Source of the DNA: Cloacibacterium caeni
GTDB lineage: Bacteria; Bacteroidota; Bacteroidia; Flavobacteriales; Weeksellaceae
Assembly (NCBI RefSeq): GCF_907163105.1
Contig: NZ_OU015321.1
Location: 1 to 64,000, forward strand
DNA length: 64,000 bases
Direction: 5' to 3'
Shown: one piece after another, positions 2,806 through 35,986 of the stretch
Position numbering within the stretch: position 1 is the first letter of the stretch
Layout: every line of letters begins with the position of its first letter
Position numbers and translations under genes: made by a program
The notes under the pieces: generated by a model
Database searches by the model: none
What the model was told of the DNA's origin: nothing
The model's input: the letters and a program-made list of their open reading frames with translations, nothing else

Positions 2806-2812
2806 TTTGGCT

Positions 2813-2924
2813 TATCGCTGTCTGCTTTCTGCAATCAGCTGAAAAGAGCTCATAATAAAAAAATATTGTATTAAAAAATTTAAAAAATGCTGAAAGCAGA
2901 TTGCCGAAAGCTGAAAGCAAAAAT
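2813..2924 (+). repeat. Degenerate word repeat in the paaA leader
   Basis: Words of the type GCTGAAAGC and GCCGAAAGC are repeated at 2890-2920, directly before the paaA ATG at 2925. The opposite-strand version (GCTTTCTGCAATCAGC) stands at about 2824-2840, so the two could pair. The same word family recurs before paaC at 4874-4955. Confidence 0.7.
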
Positions 2925-3854
2925 ATGGATACAGAAAAATTTTTACAATACGTTCAAGCCGAAAATAAGGTAGAACCCAAAGATATGATGCCAGAAGATT
3001 ACAGAAAACTTCTGGTAAGACAGATTTCGCAACATGCTCATTCTGAAGTAGTGGGAATGTTACCAGAAGCCAATTGGATTACCAGAGCGCCAAGTTTGAG
3101 AAGAAAAATGGCACTTTTGGCAAAAATTCAAGACGAAGCAGGTCACGGTTTGTATTTATATGCCGCTACAGAAACGCTGAACAACGGAGAAATAGCCGCA
3201 GACAGAGATTCTACCTATAATGATATGCTTTCTGGAAAAGCCAAATATTCTAGTATTTTTAATTATCCAGCATTAAGTTGGGCAGATATTGGAGCGATTG
3301 GCTGGTTAGTAGATGGTGCTGCTATTATGAATCAAGTAATGTTGATGGGAAATTCTTACGGCCCTTATTCCAGAGCGATGCTCAGAATTTGTAAAGAAGA
3401 ATCTTTTCACCAAAGACAAGGCTACGAAATCCTGATGACGCTTTGCCGTGGAACCAAAGAACAGAAACAATTGGCTCAAGATGCATTAGATAGATTTTGG
3501 TGGCCAGCTTTGATGATGTTTGGTCCGAATGATGACGCTTCTCCTAATTCTCAAAAATCAATGAATTACCGAGTGAAAAGAGAAAGTAACGATTCACTCC
3601 GACAAAGATTTGTAGATGTTACCGTTCCTCAAGCAGAATTTTTAGGGCTGAAAGTTCCAGATAAAAATTTAAAATGGAATGAAGAAACGGGACATTATGA
3701 TTTTGGCAATTTACCTTGGGATGAATTTAATGAAATCCTAAAAGGAAACGGACCGTGCAATAAAAAACGCCTCGAAACCAAAAGAAAAGCACAAGCAGAA
3801 AACGCTTGGGTAAAAGAAGCTGCAATTGCGTATGCTGCAAAAGTAAATTCTTAA
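2925..3854 (+). CDS. paaA: Phenylacetyl-CoA 1,2-epoxidase catalytic subunit PaaA
   Basis: A 309-residue diiron oxygenase subunit that inserts oxygen into the aromatic ring of phenylacetyl-CoA. Two ExxH metal motifs of the ferritin-like fold are visible: E71-A-G-H74 and E159-S-F-H162, with a further likely ligand at E41. The ATG at 2925 is chosen because the frame upstream of it, back to a TTG at 2901, is encoded by the leader word repeat. paaB is separated from paaA by an unrelated gene, which is unusual because PaaA, B, C and E form one complex. Confidence 0.96.
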
Positions 3855-3856
3855 GA

Positions 3857-4561
3857 ATGGAAGTAAGTAATCATAATTATATTACAGGTCTAAAAATTTT
3901 AATTCAAAGTATTCCATATTTAGGAACACCATTAAATGAATTTTTATTTGAACATAGAGGAAGAATCAAACAAGAAAGATTAAATAAATTTATTCAAAAT
4001 CTTATAGATTATTTTGAAACAGCTTCAGAATTTAAGATTGAAAATAATTATATAACAAGTGAGGAATTCGGTGATATATTTGAAAGTGTGTTAGAAAAAG
4101 TTACTAAAACTGATAATGTAGAAAAATTAGTGAGATTTAGAAATATTTTAAAAAATCAAATTGTTGAGCCTCAAAAAGTAGAATACATTGAAACTTTTAT
4201 TGATTTGATTCCAAAAATAAGTGAAAAACAATTTGAAATTCTTTATAGTCATTTGTTATATGATGAAAAATTTTTTAAAATTCTTTCAAAAATATCAGGT
4301 ATTGGGAATTTTGATGAAACGGAAGAAGAAAGCGAGAATAAATTAAATGATGAAAATGAATTTAATTATCTAAGCTCAAAATTTTTATTACCAGAATCAT
4401 TTAATTTAGAAAAAACTGAATATGATTACTTGATTCAAGATTTGATTTCAAAGTCATTACTATTGGACAATGGAATAGGAAGGATTGAAATTGAACCTCT
4501 TGAATTTGTAAAAATTACAAGTTTTGGTAAAGCTTTTATTAAATATGTATCCGAAAATTAA
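3857..4561 (+). CDS. Unknown helical protein inserted between paaA and paaB
   Basis: A 234-residue protein whose ATG lies just after the paaA stop. It is Lys/Glu/Ile-rich and mostly helical, with no signal peptide. The start (I-P-Y-L-G-T-P-L-N-E-F-L-F-E-H-R-G-R) resembles the opening of DUF4393/Abi-alpha-like proteins, but this is a weak resemblance from memory. The gene looks more AT-rich than its paa neighbours. Its place between two epoxidase subunits suggests cargo captured by the operon. Function unknown. Confidence 0.75.
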   Translation: MEVSNHNYITGLKILIQSIPYLGTPLNEFLFEHRGRIKQERLNKFIQNLIDYFETASEFKIENNYITSEEFGDIFESVLEKVTKTDNVEKLVRFRNILKNQIVEPQKVEYIETFIDLIPKISEKQFEILYSHLLYDEKFFKILSKISGIGNFDETEEESENKLNDENEFNYLSSKFLLPESFNLEKTEYDYLIQDLISKSLLLDNGIGRIEIEPLEFVKITSFGKAFIKYVSEN

Positions 4562-4591
4562 TTTAAAATCTAAAATTTATAATTTAAAATA
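4562..4591 (+). repeat. Degenerate word repeat in the paaB leader
   Basis: An AT-rich array of words such as TTTAAAATC, TAAAATTTA and TAATTTAAAATA runs directly into the paaB ATG at 4592. It is related to the AAAATCT arrays before aspS and lpxB. Confidence 0.5.
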
Positions 4592-4873
4592 ATGAATAAC
4601 CTTGATATGTGGGAAGTTTTTATCCAAACCAAACCTGGACTTTCTCATAAACACGCAGGTACGGTTCAAGCGCCAACTGCAGAACTGGCACTTCAAAACG
4701 CTCGAGACGTTTATACAAGACGCGGAGAAGGAACTTCTATTTGGGTAGTTCCCAGCAAATATGTGGTAACAAGCGAAGGAATAGACAAGGAAGCATTCTT
4801 TGATCCTGCAGATGATAAACTCTATCGTCATCCTACTTTTTACCAAATTCCTAATGATGTGAAAAACATGTAA
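4592..4873 (+). CDS. paaB: Phenylacetyl-CoA epoxidase subunit PaaB
   Basis: A 93-residue protein with the family hallmarks W-E-V-F-I-Q-T-K-P-G, H-A-G-T-V-Q-A, A-L-Q-N-A-R-D-V-Y-T-R-R-G-E-G and W-V-V-P-S. PaaB is the small structural subunit that bridges PaaA/PaaC heterodimers; it has no catalytic centre. Length matches the family (about 95). Confidence 0.95.
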   Translation: MNNLDMWEVFIQTKPGLSHKHAGTVQAPTAELALQNARDVYTRRGEGTSIWVVPSKYVVTSEGIDKEAFFDPADDKLYRHPTFYQIPNDVKNM

Positions 4874-4955
4874 GAAAGCTTTCAGCAATCAGCAATCGGC
4901 AATCAGCAATTTTTGGCTGCCGAAAGCAGATAGCCGAAAGCAGATAGCCAAAATT
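4874..4955 (+). repeat. Degenerate word repeat in the paaC leader
   Basis: The left part repeats the 7-mer AATCAGC/AATCGGC three times. The right part is a 14-mer (GCCGAAAGCAGATA) present twice, ending six bases before the paaC ATG. The two halves are roughly inverse complements (CTTTCAGC against GCCGAAAGC), so a loose hairpin is possible. Confidence 0.75.
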
Positions 4956-5696
4956 ATGAAAAACTACCTCCTAAAACTCGCAGATGATTCCCTGATTATG
5001 GGGCAGAGATTGGCAGAATGGTGCGGAAAAGGTCCGTACTTGGAAGAAGATATTGCAATAATTAACATCGCTCTTGATCAATTGGGTCAAGCCAATAATT
5101 TCTACAATTTAGCGGCAAATTTATTTAATGATGGCAGAACTGCAGATGATTTTGCCATGTTAAGAGTAGAGAAAGAATACCTCAATGCACAATTGGTAGA
5201 ATTACCAAACGGAGATTATGCTAATACTATTATGAAGGCTTATTTCTTTGCGGTTTACCAAAATTTATTGTACGAAAATTTAAGCAATTCTGCAGATGAA
5301 GAACTGAGAGCCATTGCTCAAAAATCTCTGAAAGAAGTAAAATATCACTATACTCATACCGAAACTTGGATGCGTATTTTTGCTCAAGGAACTGATGAAA
5401 GCCGAAAAAGAATAGAAGCGGCTCTCGAAAATCTTTGGGAATACACAGGCGGACTTTTTGATGAAGTAGAAGAAGAGGAAAATTTGGTGGCACTGAATTT
5501 AATTCTTTCTTCCAAACAACTTCATGAAGAATGGAAAGCTAAAATCGCAGAAGATTTTGCTAAGTTTGGTTTAGAAGTTCCAACTGCTGAATTTATGCAA
5601 AAAGGCAGCAGAAAAGGAATTCACACCGAATATTTTGGATATATTTTGTGTGAATTACAGTATATGCAAAGAACGTATCCAAATTGTGTTTGGTAG
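4956..5696 (+). CDS. paaC: Phenylacetyl-CoA epoxidase structural subunit PaaC
   Basis: A 246-residue ferritin-like protein with family motifs L-A-D-D-S-L-I-M-G-Q-R-L-A-E-W-C-G and Y-H-Y-T-H-T-E-T-W. PaaC pairs with PaaA but does not carry the working diiron site. The C-terminus (E-Y-F-G-Y-I-L-C-E-L-Q-Y-M-Q-R) also fits. Confidence 0.95.
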   Translation: MKNYLLKLADDSLIMGQRLAEWCGKGPYLEEDIAIINIALDQLGQANNFYNLAANLFNDGRTADDFAMLRVEKEYLNAQLVELPNGDYANTIMKAYFFAVYQNLLYENLSNSADEELRAIAQKSLKEVKYHYTHTETWMRIFAQGTDESRKRIEAALENLWEYTGGLFDEVEEEENLVALNLILSSKQLHEEWKAKIAEDFAKFGLEVPTAEFMQKGSRKGIHTEYFGYILCELQYMQRTYPNCVW

Positions 5697-5734
5697 AAAG
5701 TTTGAAGTCAGAAGCTGGAAGTTTTCTAACATGC

Positions 5735-5770
5735 TGTCATTCTGAATGAAACGAAGTGAAATGGAAAATC
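5735..5770 (+). repeat. Half copy of a TGTCATTCTGA extragenic repeat
   Basis: TGTCATTCTGAATGAAACG followed by AAGTGAAATGG matches the left half of the full hairpin repeat at 16594-16673. No complementary right half follows. Just before it (about 5699-5726) is another short word array of GAAG-rich units. Confidence 0.55.
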
Positions 5771-5792
5771 TATTTTCGATAAAATAAAATAA

Positions 5793-5820
5793 ATCTTTGC
5801 GCTCTTTGCGTTAAAAAACA
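5793..5820 (+). repeat. Degenerate word repeat in the paaD leader
   Basis: Two 9-bp words (CTTTGCGCT, CTTTGCGTT) followed by an A-run end immediately at the paaD ATG (5821). Confidence 0.6.
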
Positions 5821-6285
5821 ATGCAGAATCTTTTAGAAATACTCGCTCAGATTCCAGACCCCGAAATTCCAGTGATTAACATCGTGGAACTCGGGATTGT
5901 TCGTGATGCAAAAATGATTTCTGAAACAGAAGCAGAAATCATCATTACGCCTACTTATTCTGCGTGTCCTGCTATGTTTAATATCGAAGAAGATATTATC
6001 AAACTATTTAAAGAAAAAGGAATTTCTGCAAAAGTAGTTACCAAAATGTTTCCGATTTGGACTACAGATTGGATGACTGATGAAGCCAGAGAAAAACTGA
6101 AAGCTTACGGAATTGTTCCACCAGAAAAAGGTGCAGACGAAAATCATCTTCAAATTCCCAAAAAATGTCCGAGATGTGGCAGCGAAAACACTACGCAAAT
6201 CAGCAGATTTGGTTCCACACTTTGCAAAGCCAGTTATCAGTGCCAAGATTGTTTAGAACCTTTTGATTATTTTAAATATCATTAA
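5821..6285 (+). CDS. paaD: PaaD, iron-sulfur/diiron maturation factor for the epoxidase
   Basis: A 154-residue MIP18/DUF59-family protein. The N-terminal domain has D-P-E-I-P-V-I-N-I-V-E-L-G-I-V and the conserved cysteine in Y-S-A-C49-P. The C-terminal zinc ribbon has C116-x2-C119 and C141-x2-C144. PaaD is needed for active epoxidase, probably in cofactor assembly, and is not a subunit of the final enzyme. Confidence 0.94.
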   Translation: MQNLLEILAQIPDPEIPVINIVELGIVRDAKMISETEAEIIITPTYSACPAMFNIEEDIIKLFKEKGISAKVVTKMFPIWTTDWMTDEAREKLKAYGIVPPEKGADENHLQIPKKCPRCGSENTTQISRFGSTLCKASYQCQDCLEPFDYFKYH

Positions 6286-6400
6286 CGTAAAATTGTAGAA
6301 CTGTAAAGTTGCAAAATCGCAGAACCAAAAAAAATCACATAAAAACATTAGATTTGTAAAAACGACTTTACGATTTTACAAATTAACAATTCTAAAGAAA
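6286..6400 (+). repeat. Degenerate word repeat in the paaG leader
   Basis: The part next to paaG consists of 8-bp words (CTTTACGA, TTTTACAA, ATTAACAA). The part next to paaD carries the opposite-strand words (GTAAAATTG, CTGTAAAG). The word is the same as in the paaI leader at 9130-9186. Confidence 0.7.
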
Positions 6401-7198
6401 ATGTACACTCAGATAGAAATAGAAACTCATTTCGAGGGTAAGTTGAAAATCGCTTATCTCAATCAGCCCGAAACCTATAATTCACTCAATAAAGTTTTAC
6501 TCCAAGAGTTGAAAAATTTTATTGTAGCATGTAATGAAGATGAAAATGTGCGTTGTGTAGCACTTTCTGGCAGAGGAAAAGCTTTTTGTTCGGGGCAAAA
6601 TTTGAAAGAAGCACTTTCACTCGGAAATGTAGAAGAAGAAAGAGTGATTCAGAAAATGGTGGTAGATTATTACAATCCTTTGGTGGAAGAAATAGCACAT
6701 TGCAGAAAGCCAGTCGTTTCTTTGGTGAATGGTCCTGCAGTTGGAGCTGGAGCAATGTTGGCGCTGATTTGTGATATTTGTTTGACTACAGAAAATTCCT
6801 ATTTCTCTCAAGCTTTTGTAAATATTGGTTTAATTCCAGATACAGGCGGAACGTATTGGTTGCCTAAATTATTAGGACGTCAACAAGCGAATTATCTTGC
6901 TTTTACAGGAAAAAAACTCACGGCAAATGATGCTTTGAAACTGGGTTTAATTGCAGATGTTTTCGGTGATGCAGAATTTTCTACAAAATCTATGGAAGTT
7001 CTGGAAACGCTTTCTAACTTGCCTACAAAAGCGATTGCGTTAACCAAAAAAGCATTCAATCATTCTTATGAAAACGATTTAAAAGAGCAATTGGAGTTAG
7101 AAGGAATTTATCAACAAGACGCAGCAGAAACCCAAGATTTCAAAGAAGGAGTTACTGCATTTTTAGAAAAAAGAAAACCCAATTATACAGGAAAATAA
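6401..7198 (+). CDS. paaG: Enoyl-CoA hydratase/isomerase, ring-epoxide isomerase PaaG
   Basis: A 265-residue crotonase-fold protein. The oxyanion-hole segments are A-F-C-S-G-Q-N-L and N-G-P-A-V-G-A-G-A. The active-site region reads V-N-I-G-L-I-P-D147-T-G-G-T-Y-W-L-P; the Asp in P-D-x-G-G-T is the PaaG-type catalytic residue (Asp136 in Thermus and E. coli-type enzymes), and the two hydratase glutamates are missing. It converts 1,2-epoxyphenylacetyl-CoA to oxepin-CoA and isomerises double bonds later in the pathway. Confidence 0.9.
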   Translation: MYTQIEIETHFEGKLKIAYLNQPETYNSLNKVLLQELKNFIVACNEDENVRCVALSGRGKAFCSGQNLKEALSLGNVEEERVIQKMVVDYYNPLVEEIAHCRKPVVSLVNGPAVGAGAMLALICDICLTTENSYFSQAFVNIGLIPDTGGTYWLPKLLGRQQANYLAFTGKKLTANDALKLGLIADVFGDAEFSTKSMEVLETLSNLPTKAIALTKKAFNHSYENDLKEQLELEGIYQQDAAETQDFKEGVTAFLEKRKPNYTGK

Positions 7199-7262
7199 TA
7201 ATGATGTGATGATGTGTTGATTTGCAGATTATCACATCGTCACATCATCACATCATCATATT
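7199..7262 (+). repeat. Inverted word repeat (16-bp perfect stem) in the paaH leader
   Basis: ATGATGTGATGATGTG at 7201-7216 is the exact inverse complement of 7241-7256. The right arm is an array of 8-bp words (CACATCGT, CACATCAT, CACATCAT) ending just before the paaH ATG at 7263. A 24-nt loop separates the arms. There is no U-tract, so it is not a standard terminator. Confidence 0.85.
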
Positions 7263-8414
7263 ATGAAGAAAGTAGGAATCATCGGCTCAGGGACTATGGG
7301 AATTGGCATTGCGCAAGTAGCAGCTACTGCACATTGCGAGGTTTTTTTATACGATGCCAACTTCTCACAAACCGAAAAATCTCTAAAAAATTTAAAAACC
7401 ACATTAAATAAATTAGCGGAAAAAGGAAAAATTTCTACTGAAAAATCTTTAGAAATCTTCAACCAAATTACGCCTTGCCAAGAAATCAAGGAATTGAAAG
7501 ATTGTGATTTGGTAATTGAGGCTATCATAGAAAATAAAGAAATCAAAGTAGAAGTTTTCAAAAATTTAGAACATTTGGTTTCTAAAGATTGCATTTTGGC
7601 TAGTAATACCTCGTCTATTTCCATTACTTCGCTTCAGGCAGAACTTAAAAATCCTGAACGTTTTATCGGGATTCATTTTTTCAATCCAGCGCCATTAATG
7701 CATTTGGTGGAGGTGATTCCAGGGTTATTGACTGAAAATAATTTGGCTCAAGAAATCGTAGATTTAATGAAATCTTGGGGCAAATCTCCTATCATTGCTA
7801 AAGATGTTCCTGGTTTTATTGTTAACCGAATTGCAAGACCTTTTTACGGTGAAGCTTTGAGAATTGTAGAAGAAAATTTGGCAACACCAGAGCAAGTAGA
7901 TGATGCGATGAAATCTTTGGGGAATTTTAAAATGGGACCATTTGAATTGATGGATTTAATAGGAATTGATGTGAATTTTTCGGTAACGAAAACCGTTTAT
8001 CATGATTATTTTTTCGATCCCAAATATAAACCTTCCTTGCTTCAGCAAAGAATGAGTGAAGCTAAATTACTTGGTAGAAAAACAGGTAAAGGTTTCTATG
8101 ATTATTCTGAACAGAACCAAGAATCAAGAACCAAGAATCAAGAAATTGTAAAAGATGAAAGTCTGTATGAAATGATTTTCATGAGAATTATTTCTATGCT
8201 CATCAATGAAGCTGTAGAAGCAAAAAGATTAGGAATTGCCAATGATGAAGACATAGAAACAGCGATGCAAAAAGGCGTAAATTATCCGAAAGGATTATTG
8301 AATTGGGGAAAGGAAATTGGATATCCAAAAATTTCTGAAGTTTTACAAAATCTCTACGAAGAATACCAAGAAGAACGCTACAGACAAAGTCCGTTGCTTA
8401 GAAAATTAAATTAA
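7263..8414 (+). CDS. paaH: 3-hydroxyacyl-CoA dehydrogenase PaaH
   Basis: A 383-residue NAD-dependent dehydrogenase for the 3-hydroxyadipyl-CoA step. The Rossmann motif G-S-G-T-M-G-I-G lies near residue 8. H-F-F-N-P-A-P-L-M, D-V-P-G-F-I-V-N-R and G-R-K-T-G-K-G-F-Y-D-Y mark the first C-terminal domain, and a second, shorter 3HCDH repeat follows (from about 300). The linker between them is encoded by a word repeat (8114-8141). E. coli PaaH is longer (475). Confidence 0.9.
   Translation: MKKVGIIGSGTMGIGIAQVAATAHCEVFLYDANFSQTEKSLKNLKTTLNKLAEKGKISTEKSLEIFNQITPCQEIKELKDCDLVIEAIIENKEIKVEVFKNLEHLVSKDCILASNTSSISITSLQAELKNPERFIGIHFFNPAPLMHLVEVIPGLLTENNLAQEIVDLMKSWGKSPIIAKDVPGFIVNRIARPFYGEALRIVEENLATPEQVDDAMKSLGNFKMGPFELMDLIGIDVNFSVTKTVYHDYFFDPKYKPSLLQQRMSEAKLLGRKTGKGFYDYSEQNQESRTKNQEIVKDESLYEMIFMRIISMLINEAVEAKRLGIANDEDIETAMQKGVNYPKGLLNWGKEIGYPKISEVLQNLYEEYQEERYRQSPLLRKLN
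8114..8141 (+). repeat. Four tandem 7-mers inside paaH
   Basis: The 14-mer GAACCAAGAATCAA occurs twice without mismatch, which equals four 7-mers (GAACCAA/GAATCAA). It is read in frame as Asn/Gln/Glu/Ser/Arg-rich linker residues between the two C-terminal domains of PaaH. Confidence 0.85.
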
Positions 8415-8417
8415 AAA

Positions 8418-8684
8418 ATGGAACATGTTTTTTCCTCAAATCATATTAATCTCTTTAAGCAAAATGACTTCTTAGAGTTGATAATTGATGATTACGAACT
8501 TTTTGATTATATAGATGATTTATTGCATGAATTTGATTTGAGTGAGGAAGACCAAGAATATTCTTTTGAAGAAGATAATCATATTATTTTTAAAGAAATT
8601 CAAAATCAAGAAAAAATCATTTCATTTTTAAAAGATTTGAATTCTGATGAAATCGAAAGAATTTACAAACTGAATAATAAATAA
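8418..8684 (+). CDS. Small acidic protein of unknown function
   Basis: An 88-residue, very acidic soluble protein (E-L-I-I-D-D-Y-E-L-F-D-Y-I-D-D-L-L-H-E-F-D) starting 3 bp after paaH. Its stop shares one base with the next ATG. No family was recognised. With the next two genes it forms a translationally coupled three-gene insert between paaH and paaI. Confidence 0.7.
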   Translation: MEHVFSSNHINLFKQNDFLELIIDDYELFDYIDDLLHEFDLSEEDQEYSFEEDNHIIFKEIQNQEKIISFLKDLNSDEIERIYKLNNK

Positions 8685-8926
8685 TGATGAAAAAAGCATT
8701 GATAAAAAGCATAATCCAATCCGTAACCTTTGTTTTAATTTATTTTGTTCTGGGATTTTTTTTCAATAAAATTGATGTCTCAATAATAGAATATTTTAAA
8801 AACGAATTAAATAAAAACTTGTTTATTTTAGGGCTTATGTTTGTGCTTTTTTTCATAGGAAATTACATCAATAGAAATAAAGAAATCACTTGGGAAACTA
8901 TATTTAAAAAACAAAAAAGAGAATGA
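8684..8926 (+). CDS. Small two-span membrane protein (first of a pair)
   Basis: An 80-residue protein with two hydrophobic segments (about residues 10-27 and 46-62) and a basic C-terminus. The ATG overlaps the previous stop by one base; a second ATG follows at 8687. It resembles the next protein in layout (I-I-x-x-I-x-x-F-V near the start, F-F-x-N-K, then F-x-L-x-F). Function unknown. Confidence 0.65.
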   Translation: MMKKALIKSIIQSVTFVLIYFVLGFFFNKIDVSIIEYFKNELNKNLFILGLMFVLFFIGNYINRNKEITWETIFKKQKRE

Positions 8927-9129
8927 ATCCAAAACTAATTATTGCAATCATAAACGCTATTGTATCTTTCGTCATTATTGTTCCGATGAGTTTTTTCATG
9001 AATAAATTCATCAACAATTCTGAGGATACTTTTTTACAGTTTTTCCAAGATAAATGGTTGATTTTAACAGTATTTGTTTTAATTTTCACCATATACAATA
9101 GCTTTTTAAAAGGCAGAAAACTTAAATAA
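8923..9129 (+). CDS. Small two-span membrane protein (second of a pair)
   Basis: A 68-residue protein with two hydrophobic segments (about 4-25 and 44-58) and a lysine-rich tail. It overlaps the previous gene by 4 bp (ATGA), a classic coupling arrangement. It is probably a distant paralogue of its neighbour. Function unknown. Confidence 0.65.
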   Translation: MNPKLIIAIINAIVSFVIIVPMSFFMNKFINNSEDTFLQFFQDKWLILTVFVLIFTIYNSFLKGRKLK

Positions 9130-9186
9130 ATCAACTACACAATTTTACAAATTAACGACTTTACAATTTTACAACTTTACAAAAAA
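9130..9186 (+). repeat. Degenerate word repeat in the paaI leader
   Basis: Five 8-bp words can be read in a row (TTTACAAA, TTAACGAC, TTTACAAT, TTTACAAC, TTTACAAA), followed by AAA and the paaI ATG at 9187. This is the same word as in the paaG leader. Confidence 0.8.
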
Positions 9187-9600
9187 ATGACACCACTAGA
9201 AATCGCACAATATATGCTCAATCAAGATTTTTTCTCACAATGGATGGAGATAAAACTGGTTGAGGTTCGCGAACATCACTGTTTGATTGAAATGCCCATC
9301 AAAAAAGAGATGATTAATGGCTTAAAAACGGTTCATGGCGGAGTAACTTTTGCTTTTGCGGATTCTGCATTGGCGTTTTCTTCTAACAATATGGGAGATG
9401 CAGCAGTTGCGCTCAATTGTATGATTAATTTTACCAAAGCGGTACGTTTTGGAGACACCCTTTTTGCCGAGAGTATTCTCATGGCAGATACCAGAAAAAC
9501 AGCAGTTTATGATATTACGATTACCAATCAGCATAAAGAGGTGGTCGCAAGTTTCAGAGGAACTGTTTATAAAATTGATAAAAAAGTAGTTGATTTATAA
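9187..9600 (+). CDS. paaI: Hydroxyphenylacetyl-CoA thioesterase PaaI
   Basis: A 137-residue hotdog-fold thioesterase. The family motif V-H50-G-G-V-T-F-A-F-A-D59-S-A-L-A-F contains the catalytic Asp. PaaI hydrolyses dead-end ring-hydroxylated phenylacetyl-CoA esters and frees CoA. Length matches E. coli PaaI (140). Confidence 0.92.
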   Translation: MTPLEIAQYMLNQDFFSQWMEIKLVEVREHHCLIEMPIKKEMINGLKTVHGGVTFAFADSALAFSSNNMGDAAVALNCMINFTKAVRFGDTLFAESILMADTRKTAVYDITITNQHKEVVASFRGTVYKIDKKVVDL

Positions 9601-9614
9601 TTTCGAAATCAGAT

Positions 9615-10823
9615 ATGAAACAAGTATACATCATAGATTACATCAGAACACCGATTGCTAAATTTCAAGGAGGTTTATTGGAAGTAAGAGCAGATGATTT
9701 GGCAGCCATTGTTTTGAAGGAAATTGTAAAAAGAAATCCACAAATTCCCGCCGAAGAAATAGAAGACGTGATTTTAGGTTGTGCCAATCAAGCTGGCGAA
9801 GATAACCGAAATGTCGCAAGAATGGCTTCACTTTTGGCAGAACTTCCTATAAAAATTGGCGGAGAAACTGTGAATAGATTATGCGCTTCTGGAATGGCAG
9901 CAATTGCCAATGCGTACAGAGCGATTGCAATTGGCGAAGGCGAAATTTATTTAGCAGGAGGAGTTGAACAGATGACTAGGGCGCCTTATGTTTTGAGTAA
10001 ATCTGCTCAACCTTTTGGCAGAGATGTTCAGTTGTTTGATAGCAGTTTTGGATGGAGGTTTGTTAATCCTAAAATGAAAGAACTCTACGGAGTTGACGGA
10101 ATGGGAGAAACCGCTGAAAATCTAGCCGAAATCTATAAAATTTCCAGAGAAGCGCAAGATGAATTCGCTTTACATTCTCAACAAAAAGCTACTTCTGCTC
10201 AAAATTCAGGAAGATTAGCCCAAGAAATTGTAAACGTAGAAATTCCACAAAAAAAAGGAGAACCGAAAATCTTTTCACAAGACGAATTTGTAAAACCAGA
10301 TACTACTTTAGACAAATTAGCGAAGCTAAGACCTGCTTTCAAAAAAGAAGGTGGAAGTGTTACTGCGGGAAATTCTTCGGGCTTAAATGACGGAGCTGCT
10401 GCCATGATTTTGGCAAGTGAAGACGCCGTAAAAAAATATAATTTGAAGCCATTGGCAAAAATTATTTCAAGCGCAGTGGTTGGTGTAGAACCTAGAATTA
10501 TGGGAATAGGTCCAGTAGAAGCGACCAAAAAAGCGCTTTCTAGAGCCAATCTTTCGTTGGAAGATATGGATATTATTGAACTCAATGAAGCTTTTGCAGC
10601 ACAAGCATTATCAGTTTTACAGGAATTAGGAATTGATGCTAAAGATGAACGATTAAATCCAAATGGTGGCGCGATTGCTTTAGGTCATCCTCTCGGAATG
10701 TCAGGAACCAGAATTGTAGGAACTGCCGCTTTAGAATTACAGAAAAAAAATAAAAAATATGCACTTTGTACGCTCTGCATCGGAGTTGGACAAGGATACG
10801 CAATGATCATTGAAAAAATTTAA
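9615..10823 (+). CDS. paaJ: 3-oxoadipyl-CoA/3-oxo-5,6-dehydrosuberyl-CoA thiolase PaaJ
   Basis: A 402-residue thiolase. Nucleophile C90 lies in N-R-L-C-A-S-G-M, H358 in G-G-A-I-A-L-G-H-P-L-G-M-S-G-T-R, and the second catalytic C388 in C-I-G-V-G-Q-G. N-E-A-F-A-A-Q is also present. It cleaves 3-oxoadipyl-CoA to acetyl-CoA and succinyl-CoA. It starts 14 bp after paaI and is one of the few genes here without a repeat leader. Confidence 0.93.
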   Translation: MKQVYIIDYIRTPIAKFQGGLLEVRADDLAAIVLKEIVKRNPQIPAEEIEDVILGCANQAGEDNRNVARMASLLAELPIKIGGETVNRLCASGMAAIANAYRAIAIGEGEIYLAGGVEQMTRAPYVLSKSAQPFGRDVQLFDSSFGWRFVNPKMKELYGVDGMGETAENLAEIYKISREAQDEFALHSQQKATSAQNSGRLAQEIVNVEIPQKKGEPKIFSQDEFVKPDTTLDKLAKLRPAFKKEGGSVTAGNSSGLNDGAAAMILASEDAVKKYNLKPLAKIISSAVVGVEPRIMGIGPVEATKKALSRANLSLEDMDIIELNEAFAAQALSVLQELGIDAKDERLNPNGGAIALGHPLGMSGTRIVGTAALELQKKNKKYALCTLCIGVGQGYAMIIEKI

Positions 10824-10841
10824 AAGCTTTTTTCTTTTATT

Positions 10842-11054
10842 TGACATTGAATTGGAGGCGTTAAAAAATTTTGAAATTGATTCGTTAATAAACCATTTAT
10901 GGTTCGCCGAGACCAAAAAAAAAATAAAAATAATGAGGCAAATTCCTGCTGTTTGAGCGAAGCGAGTTTCAGGGATTTTAGAATTAATGAAAAATTTTAG
11001 CCGAGAATTCACAGTCTTGAACTTTTGGTTCTTTTGTTTCAAGACAAAAGAACA
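10842..11054 (+). repeat. Dispersed repeat, copy 1 (between paaJ and paaY)
   Basis: About 210 bp shared with 58023-58230. The common blocks, in order, are GACATTGAATTGGAGGCG, an AAATTTTGAAAT/ATTCGTTAA block, AAATTCCTGCTGTTTGAGC, GAGTTTCAGGGATTTTAGAAT, TTTTAGCCGAGAATTC and a final perfect hairpin GTTCTTTTGT/ACAAAAGAAC. The hairpin ends about 13 bp before the paaY ATG. No ORF is supported inside. Confidence 0.85.
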
Positions 11055-11067
11055 TAAATAAAAATAT

Positions 11068-11658
11068 ATGGCAAATATTTATTCATACCACGGTATAAAA
11101 CCCATCATTAGAAAATCAGCATACATCCATCCTCAAGCGGTAATTATAGGAAATGTAGAAATAGGGGAAGAAGTATACATCGGTCCCAATGCAGTTTTGA
11201 GGGGAGATTGGGGAAAAATCATTATCAAAGACGGCGCAAACGTTCAAGAAAACTGTACGCTTCACGTTTTTCCAGGAATTCCTACTGTTTTAGAAGAATC
11301 GGCGCATATTGGTCATGGTGCGATTATTCATTCGGCGCACATTGGCAAAAATTGTTTGGTTGGGATGAACGCTGTAGTGATGGACAATGCCAAAATTGGA
11401 GACGAATGCATTATTGGTGCGTTGAGTTTTGTTCCCACTGGTTTTATTTCGGAAAATAGAAAATTGATAGTTGGCAGTCCTGCGAAAATTATTCGCGAAG
11501 TTTCAGACGAAATGATTGCTTGGAAAACCAAAGGAACCGCTATTTATCAAGAATTAGCTCGTGAAGGAAAAACCGCCATTCAACCGTGCGAACCGTACAC
11601 AGAATTTGTAGAACAAACGCCCACCAAAATTGTAGATTACTCTGTTTGGACGAAGTAA
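11068..11658 (+). CDS. paaY: PaaY, gamma-carbonic-anhydrase-like hexapeptide thioesterase
   Basis: A 196-residue left-handed beta-helix protein with repeated hexapeptides (I-G-N-V-E-I, V-Y-I-G-P-N-A-V-L-R-G-D) and metal-binding histidines in H-I-G-H-G-A-I-I-H-S-A-H-I-G. PaaY is linked to removal of inhibitory CoA by-products. Length equals E. coli PaaY (196). Confidence 0.92.
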   Translation: MANIYSYHGIKPIIRKSAYIHPQAVIIGNVEIGEEVYIGPNAVLRGDWGKIIIKDGANVQENCTLHVFPGIPTVLEESAHIGHGAIIHSAHIGKNCLVGMNAVVMDNAKIGDECIIGALSFVPTGFISENRKLIVGSPAKIIREVSDEMIAWKTKGTAIYQELAREGKTAIQPCEPYTEFVEQTPTKIVDYSVWTK

Positions 11659-11780
11659 TGGCGCCAAATTTCCAGCTTTCCACTACAATCTTTTATTTTT
11701 CCACTTCTGTCAGTCTGAGCGGAGTCGAAGACAAAGAAAAATAAAAGGATTTCCGTTGCAATCTGGGGCGCAATTTCGTT
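11659..11780 (+). repeat. Composite hairpin repeat downstream of paaY
   Basis: A long imperfect hairpin with outer arms from CCAGCTTTCC (11672) to GCAATCTGG (11766) and inner arms TTTTATTTTTC/GAAAAATAAAA. The loop holds a smaller repeat beginning TGTCAGTCTGAGCGGAGTCG. A second word-like stretch (CATCACCAAACATCAAACACC) leads into paaZ. Confidence 0.75.
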
Positions 11781-11870
11781 GCAATTTCACCATTTTTCCA
11801 AAATTTAAAATTTGAGTATTTTTAGAAACAATAAAACATCCATCACCAAACATCAAACACCCCACATAAA

Positions 11871-15678: not shown

Positions 15679-15711
15679 TTTTTTACAGAAAATTTGAAAT
15701 TTTGTAAAATT

Positions 15712-15799
15712 GCAGCCCGGCTTGAGCGGAAATCCTTTTTTTGCATTGGGAAAAGATTGGGCAAAAAAAGATTGGGAGCGGAAGACGGAAATGTCTGCC
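15712..15799 (+). repeat. Extragenic hairpin repeat before the paaF-like gene
   Basis: Begins GCAGCCCGGCTTGAGCGG and ends GACGGAAATGTCTGCC. The inner arms AATCCTTTTTTTGC and GCAAAAAAAGATT can pair. Similar blocks (AGCCCGGCTTGAGCGGAAAT) are known to me as frequent extragenic repeats in Chryseobacterium-type genomes. It ends 13 bp before the next ATG. Confidence 0.7.
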
Positions 15800-21776: not shown

Positions 21777-22618
21777 GTTTATCCAAAATCTGCAGATTGT
21801 TTGGGATAAGCAGACAAGCCATTTACCAGCAGCGCCAAAGATTATGTGTTCGGGAAAAAGAATTGGAGAAAGTTAAACAATTCGTTGAGGAGATTCGTTT
21901 AGAACAGCCCAGAATAGGAACAAGAAAACTTTATTATTTGCTTAAAAATAAGTTCAAGCTTGAAAAGATAAAAATAGGCAGAGATGCGCTGTTCAATTAT
22001 TTACGAAGAGAAAACCTGCTTATTTATCCTAAGAAAAGATATACAAGAACAACTTTCTCCAAACACTGGCTCAGAAAACACCCCAACCTTTTGAAAACGA
22101 CTTGCCTAAAAAGAAAAGAACAGGTATTTGTAAGCGATATCACTTATATAAAAACCAAAACGAATGTCTGTTATTTATCTTTGGTTACGGATGCTTACAG
22201 CAGAAAAATAATGGGTTACGAATTAAGTGAAAATATGAATGCTGAAAATGTAGTCAAAGCTCTGAAAATGGCCGTTAAAAACAGAACAACACATCTTCCG
22301 CTTATTCATCACTCAGACAGGGGATTGCAATATTGCTCAGAAGTGTATCAGAAAGTACTTGTTGAAAACAAAATAAAACCCTCAATGACAGATGGCTATG
22401 ATTGTTATCAAAATGCTTTGGCAGAAAGAATAAACGGAATATTGAAGCAGGAATTTTTAATTTATAAATGCAAAAACATTCAGGATTTAAAACAAATGGT
22501 TAAAGAAAGTATTTATATTTACAACAACAAAAGACCACATCTTAGTCTGAAGATGAAAACCCCGGAAACAATCCACAAAAAATCCGGAAAATCAATATCT
22601 TCCGGATTGGTATTTTAA
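21773..22618 (+). CDS. IS3-family transposase OrfB (DDE catalytic part)
   Basis: 281 residues in the -1 frame relative to OrfA, with a TTG as the first possible start. The DDE triad of the rve domain is visible in V-S-D-I-T-Y-I-K-T, H-H-S-D-R-G-L-Q-Y and N-A-L-A-E-R-I-N-G. The N-terminal HTH_21 segment (E-Q-P-R-I-G-T-R-K-L) is present. The protein appears intact and may be made alone by coupling or as a fusion. Confidence 0.92.
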   Translation: MSLSKICRLFGISRQAIYQQRQRLCVREKELEKVKQFVEEIRLEQPRIGTRKLYYLLKNKFKLEKIKIGRDALFNYLRRENLLIYPKKRYTRTTFSKHWLRKHPNLLKTTCLKRKEQVFVSDITYIKTKTNVCYLSLVTDAYSRKIMGYELSENMNAENVVKALKMAVKNRTTHLPLIHHSDRGLQYCSEVYQKVLVENKIKPSMTDGYDCYQNALAERINGILKQEFLIYKCKNIQDLKQMVKESIYIYNNKRPHLSLKMKTPETIHKKSGKSISSGLVF

Positions 22619-31954: not shown

Positions 31955-31996
31955 TTTTTTAGATTTTAGATTTTAGATTTCAGATTTTAGATTTTT
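31955..31996 (-). repeat. AAAATCT word array in the aspS leader
   Basis: Read on the minus strand, 7-mers AAAATCT, GAAATCT, AAAATCT run up to the aspS ATG. The same word in the same orientation stands before lpxB at 35950-35986. Confidence 0.8.
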
Positions 31997-35903: not shown

Positions 35904-35949
35904 AGCAAAATTAAGTCAAATTTTTAGAATAAAAATTTTTAGTCCATCT

Positions 35950-35986
35950 GAAAATCTAAAATCTAAAATCTAAAAAATCTAAAATC
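35950..35986 (+). repeat. AAAATCT word array in the lpxB leader
   Basis: Five near-identical 7-9 bp words (AAAATCT, with one AAAAAATCT) end directly at the TTG start codon of lpxB. Same word and orientation as before aspS. Confidence 0.85.

Follow-up and report, generated by a model that had tools for sequence, protein, structure and literature searches.

Introduction

Intervening sequences (IVS) of bacterial rRNA have been described as parasitic inserts bounded by a stem, some of them with an S23 open reading frame (ORF), which are sporadic between strains and are removed by RNase III (PMC4990558). In that account, the function of the S23/IVP proteins is given as not known, and little is said to be known of what IVSs do (PMC4990558). 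This report is concerned with a stretch of 64,000 nucleotides of Cloacibacterium caeni (NZ_OU015321.1, positions 1 to 64,000; hereafter the window), one end of a genome of 2.72 Mb in a single contig. In the window, genes of a paa operon are preceded by short arrays of degenerate words that end close to the start codon. These arrays are probably the 3' arms of intergenic palindromic elements, relatives of the rRNA IVS that move into gaps between cistrons and displace each other there.

Several features are shared with the IVS of rRNA (PMC4990558; PMC2672173). Complementary ends form a stem around a loop with an ORF or none, and the ORF is S23/IVP in some copies. Occurrence is sporadic, as IVS vary between strains and between gene copies, and a long stem-loop stands in place of a small loop where it is harmless. 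However, IVS are located in 16S or 23S rRNA, whereas the present elements lie in gaps between protein genes, have arms made of word arrays and belong to several families that alternate at one gap. Because the site differs from rRNA, the elements are not IVS by definition; they resemble IVS in anatomy and distribution. No description of IVP elements or word palindromes in protein operons was found in the titles and abstract openings of the matches listed from the open-access literature searched.

Three other systems are close. Heptamer repeats of TAACTGA have been reported before start codons in Beggiatoaceae, Cyanobacteria and some Bacteroidetes (PMC4679880). Like the present arrays, they are direct repeats of patchy distribution, often a few nucleotides before the start and of little Shine-Dalgarno (SD) character. 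They differ in using one fixed word where the present arrays use many, and a reverse-complement arm on the stop side, a palindrome and IVP cargo are not among the features given for them in the available part of that description (PMC4679880). Tandem TAACTGA was not seen by eye in the listed arrays of the C. caeni genome. Intrinsic terminators are likewise inverted repeats in gaps; the present elements differ from them in lying inside operons and in having long arms of degenerate words. Repetitive extragenic palindromic (REP) sequences and bacterial interspersed mosaic elements (BIMEs), moved by a REP-associated transposase (RAYT), have a conserved palindromic core common to their copies. The present elements differ in running from edge to edge of the gap and in their alternating families, and no common core was seen among them, though no search aimed at one was made. 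The likeness to REP and BIMEs is that both are dispersed intergenic palindromes (PMC2817692).

Stop-to-start palindromes in the paa operon

The paa gaps were compared across 44 loci, namely the window and 43 of 80 fetched loci (L065 and L066 were read and then omitted; the other 35 were unused). Among gaps of 40-250 nt, 178 of 241 are palindromic at a score of at least 36, compared with 31.0 in shuffles, and 114 at a score of at least 50, compared with 3.0. The arms reach close to both genes: by gap, the median distance is 0-5 nt on the stop side and 3-16 nt on the start side. Duplex energies were compared in 464 kb of the C. caeni genome (191 gaps). The two arms of one gap pair at -15 kcal/mol or better in 24 gaps, compared with 6.0 when arms were re-paired between gaps and 10.9 with shuffled arms; at -20 kcal/mol the counts are 10, 0.4 and 1.7. 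The top three duplexes in this sample are paa gaps of the window. Edge-to-edge palindromes scoring at least 50 are concentrated in the operon, being present in 103 of 291 paa gaps of Chryseobacterium and in 3 of 47 flanking same-strand gaps; in the genome of the window the counts are 1 of 7 paa gaps and 3 of 278, and the sample of Chryseobacterium indologenes has 3 in 93 same-strand gaps. Convergent gaps also carry such palindromes (14 of 47 in the C. caeni genome, 7 of 22 in C. indologenes), nearly all of them by eye short perfect stems with A and T runs, terminator-like and thus of another class.

In the window, the words before paaA, paaB, paaC, paaD, paaG, paaH, paaI and paaZ end 0-12 nt before the ATG, as first placed by a reading made from the sequence alone (the sequence-only reading). 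Upstream of paaA (2806..2924, + strand, as are all features here unless stated), a left arm at ~2809-2839 (GCTTATCGCTGTCTGCTTTCTGCAATCAGC) and a right arm at ~2889-2918 (GCTGAAAGCAGATTGCCGAAAGC...) form the best duplex of the 191 gaps (-30.1 kcal/mol). Between paaB and paaC (paaB>paaC, 4874..4955), TCAGCAA words at ~4881-4910 pair with GCCGAAAGCAGATA words at ~4919-4951 (-27.7 kcal/mol). The paaD>paaG palindrome (6286..6400; -20.0 kcal/mol) has TTGTAGAACTGTAAAGTTG words after the stop and CGACTTTACGATTTTACAAATTAAC before the start, and that of paaG>paaH (7199..7262; -28.8 kcal/mol) has its left arm at ~7201-7216 (ATGATGTGATGATGTG) and its right arm at 7231-7258 (ATCACATCGTCACATCATCACATC words). 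The paaC>paaD gap (5697..5820), with G-words after the stop at ~5702-5722 and CTTTGCG words at 5795-5810 before paaD, has no clear palindrome by score (22). Inside it, positions 5732-5770 resemble by eye the TGTCATTCTGA..GAAG..ATCT repeat of many Chryseobacterium palindrome loops. The plan of an intrinsic terminator, a short GC-rich stem followed by a T run, was not seen by eye in the paa gaps of the window, where the right arms run into A-rich sequence before the start.

As tandem arrays, most but not all of the words hold against chance. The 60 nt before each start were compared with 500 dinucleotide shuffles per leader. The array score was reached by no shuffle for paaC, paaH, paaI, paaZ, aspS and lpxB, by four for paaG and by six for paaB. 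For paaD it was reached by 13, with a different best-scoring stretch that ends 27 nt before the ATG. The paaA leader is not significant as a tandem array (85 shuffles) and is clear as half of a palindrome. The array proposed at coaE was not borne out (150 shuffles), and its word, which is G-rich, runs across the ATG picked by the gene caller. The comparison leaders of paaJ and paaY were reached by 107 and 25 shuffles; their best stretches lie 31 and 27 nt upstream of the start. The array before paaB (4562..4591; AAAATCTAAAATTTATAATTTAAAAT) has period 7, that before paaI (9139..9183; ACAATTTTACAA words) period 8 and that before paaZ (11834..11861; AAACATCAAACACC) period 7/14. Outside the operon, the array before aspS (31955..31995, - strand) consists of AAAATCT x5, a word in common with the array before lpxB (35946..35986), which lies in a divergent gap and has the C-rich side only.

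Two gaps of the window hold cargo ORFs without a family match, one of 234 aa between paaA and paaB (3857..4561) and one of 88 aa between paaH and paaI (8418..8684), the latter followed by further small ORFs, seen by eye, up to ~9128. PaaG, PaaH, PaaI, PaaD and PaaZ were assigned by family match, as were two PaaA/PaaC-family genes; the names aspS, lpxB, coaE, paaJ and paaY are those of the sequence-only reading, and paaE, paaB and orf1 are labels of the present analysis. The best named relatives of the window's PaaA are from Kaistella, Chryseobacterium, Halpernia and Elizabethkingia. Flavo-1 RNA (RF01705) matches the window at 11665-11773 (-), in the paaY>paaZ gap, and at 15710-15795 (+). An 86-nt gap at 21777-21862 recurs in the 464 kb sample at L007 17177-17262, L009 4822-4907 and L017 5271-5356; these four copies probably lie within a two-ORF insertion sequence that is itself repeated.

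Arrays at both edges of the gap

The sequence-only reading had taken the arrays for a portable 5' leader or the product of a process at translation starts. Their position was examined in 864 kb (the window and 40 stretches of 20 kb, ~32% of the 2.72 Mb), with genes called by a simple hexamer caller, so that some starts will be wrong. Of 400 same-strand gaps, 40 carry arrays scoring at least 13, where shuffles give 1.0; the counts are 3 of 81 for divergent gaps (1.3 in shuffles) and 3 of 73 for convergent gaps (0.0). In 400 kb of C. indologenes such arrays are few in gaps of every type, with 2 in 149 same-strand, 1 in 40 divergent and 3 in 42 convergent gaps. Period 7 accounts for 33 of 84 arrays scoring at least 11, and period 14 for 16. 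Among 64 arrays of this score in same-strand gaps of at least 60 nt, 22 have their 3' end no more than 15 nt from the start and 20 have their 5' end no more than 15 nt from the stop; random placement within the same gaps would give 11.3 in either case.

The array on the stop side is often the reverse complement of that on the start side. In same-strand gaps, 15 of 17 arrays at the 5' edge are G-rich and 19 of 20 at the 3' edge are C-rich, and the 21 arrays that lie mid-gap or touch both edges are mixed (G/C, 12 and 9). The G excess after stops is not general, as gaps without arrays have G 1156 and C 1224 there. Convergent gaps, which have no start codons, have the same polarity in 4 of 4 informative edge arrays, and divergent gaps in 2 of 3. 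At a score of at least 13, 19 of 346 start edges of same-strand gaps carry arrays, compared with 1 of 162 in divergent gaps (Fisher p 0.006); at a score of at least 11, the counts are 24 and 3 (p 0.018). Stop edges do not differ between same-strand (16 of 346) and convergent (4 of 124) gaps (p 0.61). Arrays are thus scarce only where promoters would be. Taken together, the equal flushness with stops, the polarity in convergent gaps and the scarcity at divergent starts mean that arrays track the edges of gaps rather than start codons. The predicted enrichment near starts was found in same-strand gaps; it is matched by the enrichment near stops and fails at divergent starts. The 5' leader was rejected on these grounds, and the process at translation starts is not supported.

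Probable replacement between relatives

The other part of the same proposal, a portable sequence with a conserved place and varied words, was upheld, and more strongly than that reading could tell. Words differ at the same gap between close species. Similar words also recur at non-orthologous gaps within one genome (20.2% of 704 pairs score at least 50, where 4000 shuffled scores peak at 48.5), and average-linkage clustering of the 241 paa gaps gave recurrent families. At paaB>paaC, nine families were found in 29 species. Placed on the paa gene tree, the families at eight paa gaps require 83 changes; in comparison with 500 label shuffles, 51-410 shuffles do as well in five of these gaps and 4-30 in three.

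One swap is between L057 and L059, two species with seven paa genes 96.5% identical, which have unrelated palindromes at paaB>paaC. The adjoining 45 nt are 98% identical in paaB and 100% in paaC. Across gaps, the average identity of flanking gene ends in pairs of different family (111) stays within 2.3 points of that in pairs of the same family (70) in every 45-nt bin. A swap by import together with the flanking genes was rejected on this measure, with isolated exceptions such as paaA>paaB of L057 and L059, with 76% identity in the last 45 nt of paaA.

In the window's own genus, five of seven genomes (the window's included) have a close paaH, and filled and empty gaps alternate among them, the empty ones being of 2-16 nt. 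The paaG>paaH gap is filled in four and of 5 nt in one (L220); paaI>paaJ is of 14 nt in three and 73 nt in two; paaC>paaD is of 2 nt in two genomes. Three different palindromes, the window's included, occupy paaB>paaC, and the gap upstream of paaA has one palindrome in four genomes and another in the fifth. At paaA>paaB there is other sequence, in some with small genes, or a 16-nt gap, and at paaH>paaI the sequence differs between genomes, again in some with small genes. Among 644 pairs of similar alleles, which are not independent, indels rise at 8 nt (167, with 91 at 7 and 60 at 9) and at 16 nt (44, with 26 and 18 beside it), with no peak at 7; this rise weakly supports slippage by words.

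Small genes within matching arms

Cargo ORFs of the paa gaps are on the operon strand in 103 of 104 cases. The sole exception (L217 2155-3327, -, in paaA>paaB) is by eye an insertion-sequence transposase. Large cargo genes of 560-968 aa, on the operon strand, are present at paaD>paaG of L037 and L050 and at paaC>paaD of L049. Fourteen longer paa gaps, six of them paaG>paaH and eight paaI>paaJ, hold a gene for IVP (PF05635, 23S rRNA-intervening-sequence protein); a 70-aa IVP piece matched TIGR02436 at 1.1e-13 and PF05635 at 8.4e-12. The arms flanking IVP exceed all 100 shuffles in 13 of these 14 gaps, compared with 4 of 73 gaps with other cargo (flanks below 12 nt were counted as failures). In all 14, the arms find a match above 30 shuffles among the ORF-less gaps of their own genome.

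Outside the paa operon, eight genomes have 4 to 13 IVP matches each (62 in total), and 14 control genomes have none. From these eight genomes 30 IVP loci were fetched, and seven were unreadable and dropped before counting. Paired arms (z>2) flank 15 of the 23 readable IVP genes. They flank 15 of 175 small genes taken as controls, a set that includes one IVP; the distributions of z differ (p 2e-8). The stem of complementary ends is therefore present in these elements, though not in every copy; likewise present are loops with an IVP/S23 ORF or without any ORF, and a sporadic occurrence between close relatives. All 23 IVP genes have an upstream gene on their own strand, compared with 122 of 175 controls. 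Downstream neighbours include GroEL, adenylate kinase (Adk), CarB, PurF and NadD, assigned by family match from one partial sequence each, and GroEL follows IVP in four species (three by protein, one by DNA start). GroES, hpt, PurC, TrpG, CarA, RecJ and SufC/D were recognised as neighbours by eye. In Flavobacterium columnare, a four helix bundle gene between the genes for guanylate kinase and nicotinic acid mononucleotide adenylyltransferase appears in a table of phage elements (PMC5524665).

The IVP element before adenylate kinase in the C. caeni genome (L231) has arms that carry the leader words of paaA and paaC. Four comparisons with the paaA and paaC gaps gave z of 4.6-6.8, with 0 or 1 of 200 shuffles as high; those with the paaA arms gave 6.5 and 6.7, with 0 of 200 each. 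Flavo-1 RNA (RF01705) also matches L231 at 2510-2595, in the ~3.3 kb around this element. At the level of the order, IVP is present in 20 of 40 genomes, the window's included. Of 28 newly fetched loci, 16 were unreadable, and the 12 that could be read include three of the window's own family; arms are paired in 7 of the 12 (5 of 9 outside the family) and the upstream gene is on the same strand in all 12.

A second cargo protein is the nuclease-like GxxExxY, with 10 matches in the C. caeni genome and with words different from those of IVP elements. Nine of 30 fetched loci were unreadable and dropped before counting; the upstream gene is on the same strand in 21 of 21. At L044 (9399-10000, orf1>paaA), a GxxExxY gene lies between nearly identical 29-nt direct repeats placed directly after the stop and before the start.

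Other operons

The nuo, his and trp operons were chosen before their gaps were viewed, and words were judged by eye. They are clear in nuo and trp gaps of both genomes and in his gaps of the window's genome only. In relatives, most gaps around nuoH have words, G-rich and then C-rich; among 30 nuoH loci at family level, about one third have words by eye and the rest have short or wordless gaps. At nuoH>I of L212, a heptad array (score 42) morphs stepwise from GTGAATG through TTGAATC to TTGAAAC.

Alternative explanations

The same palindromes might be purely mutational, built in free sequence by slippage of 7-8 bp and by template switching in hairpins that copies arm to arm, with IVP and GxxExxY as passengers. 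Such a process fits the dominance of periods 7 and 14, the indels at 8 and 16 nt (in pairs that are not independent) and the stepwise change of words along the L212 array, and arm mispairs are as often A/C as G/T (344 and 267), as expected at the level of DNA. It is nevertheless unlikely, since similar words recur across genera and at more than one gap, families change between species whose genes are 96.5% identical, and paired arms are far more frequent around IVP than around other cargo. A selected RNA device, in which a stop-to-start hairpin couples the translation of neighbours or sets mRNA stability and is kept whatever its sequence, would agree with the concentration in the paa operon, with the short distances of the arms from stop and start and with the folding of gap x family sequences, 29 of 38 of which reach a z below -2. 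The sense strand, however, folds no better than the antisense strand in palindromic paa gaps (75 better and 102 worse of 178), in the 38 gap x family sequences (15 and 23) or in the C. caeni genome (10 and 10 of 20), a weak test, since other same-strand palindromes of that genome, many of them terminator-like, are also level (43 and 47 of 90). The mispairs do not favour G/T, so that the wobble-pair tests, weak as they are, gave no sign of selection on an RNA hairpin. Covariation on family alignments was dropped as a hairpin test because alifold picks structures that allow G-U pairs. With empty gaps of 2-16 nt in close relatives as well, a selected hairpin seems rather improbable.

Two further explanations assign the words to known systems. 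Palindromes of the REP/BIME type moved by a REP-associated (Y1) transposase would find their enzyme in the Y1_Tnp genes of five of six genomes searched, and one cargo type at paaY>paaZ resembles a Y1-type protein by eye, though a 70-aa piece of it has no family match. This is very unlikely, as one genome (G002), the word arrays of which were not scored, has no Y1_Tnp match, and no core common to all families was seen, although no search aimed at a core was made. Portable 5' translation leaders in place of an SD site, the proposal of the sequence-only reading, would account for arrays before starts, and Bacteroidetes are described as lacking SD sequences (PMC6847099), so that the place is free. 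The equal flushness with stops, the polarity kept in the few convergent gaps and the scarcity at starts of divergent gaps largely contradict it and make it highly improbable.

A proposed element class between cistrons

The favoured reading remains that of IVS-like elements between cistrons. A complete element consists of G-rich words of 7-8 bp after the stop, a loop or a small gene, and complementary C-rich words before the next start. The small gene is IVP or, with other words, GxxExxY, and most copies at paa loci, including those of the window, are short ORF-less versions. Elements lie in gaps between genes, mostly of the same strand, and would be tolerated there because nothing is encoded in the gap and because paired arms would keep the stop and the next start close. 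They may pass from gap to gap and from species to species, one displacing another, while slippage by whole words would degenerate and lengthen the arms. The transcribed arms may fold, and the mRNA may be cut there.

Several results weigh against this reading. At paaI>paaJ, nothing of the 14-nt empty allele survives in the filled one, a pattern of replacement and not of simple insertion; in the paa gaps compared between genomes of the genus, no target-site duplication was found and no movement was observed. Families are not cleanly separate, since single linkage at a score of 60 chains 157 of 241 gaps. The C-richness before starts is partly general, as the last 40 nt before starts in gaps without arrays have C 1258 and G 878. 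The arms are often unpaired in the nuo operon, where 11 of 28 nuoG>H gaps (2 in shuffles) and 7 of 29 nuoH>I gaps (3 in shuffles) are palindromic at a score of at least 36; as few are palindromic despite their words, the two arms are partly independent. Of the 23 genes downstream of IVP, as called, 12 share its strand, 3 lie on the opposite strand and 8 were unread. L231 is the only match when three IVP elements of the C. caeni genome are compared with six paa gaps of the window, and at the level of the order the G/C polarity is present in 1 of 12 readable IVP loci. GxxExxY flanks are direct repeats in 10 of 21 and inverted in 10 of 21. Finally, no 16S or 23S rRNA gene, or any other rRNA, was found at 14 IVP loci or in the window when scanned against Rfam, and the kinship with rRNA IVS therefore rests on the protein family and the plan.

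A wider proposal can be put forward tentatively, and is doubtful as yet. Rather than a peculiarity of rRNA, IVS may be a branch of a large class of elements at home between the cistrons of protein operons. IVP might help the hairpin RNA to copy into new gaps in the sense orientation, as might GxxExxY in parallel; the ORF-less hairpins would then be dependants of IVP and the words first noticed in the window their arms. The IVP family between matching arms in the groES/groEL, carA/carB, purC/purF and paa operons offers many natural replicates for the study of insertion sites, orientation and arm changes. If the favoured reading holds, the puzzling intergenic words of these genomes would be explained, and caution would be advised against reading them as leaders or regulatory sites.

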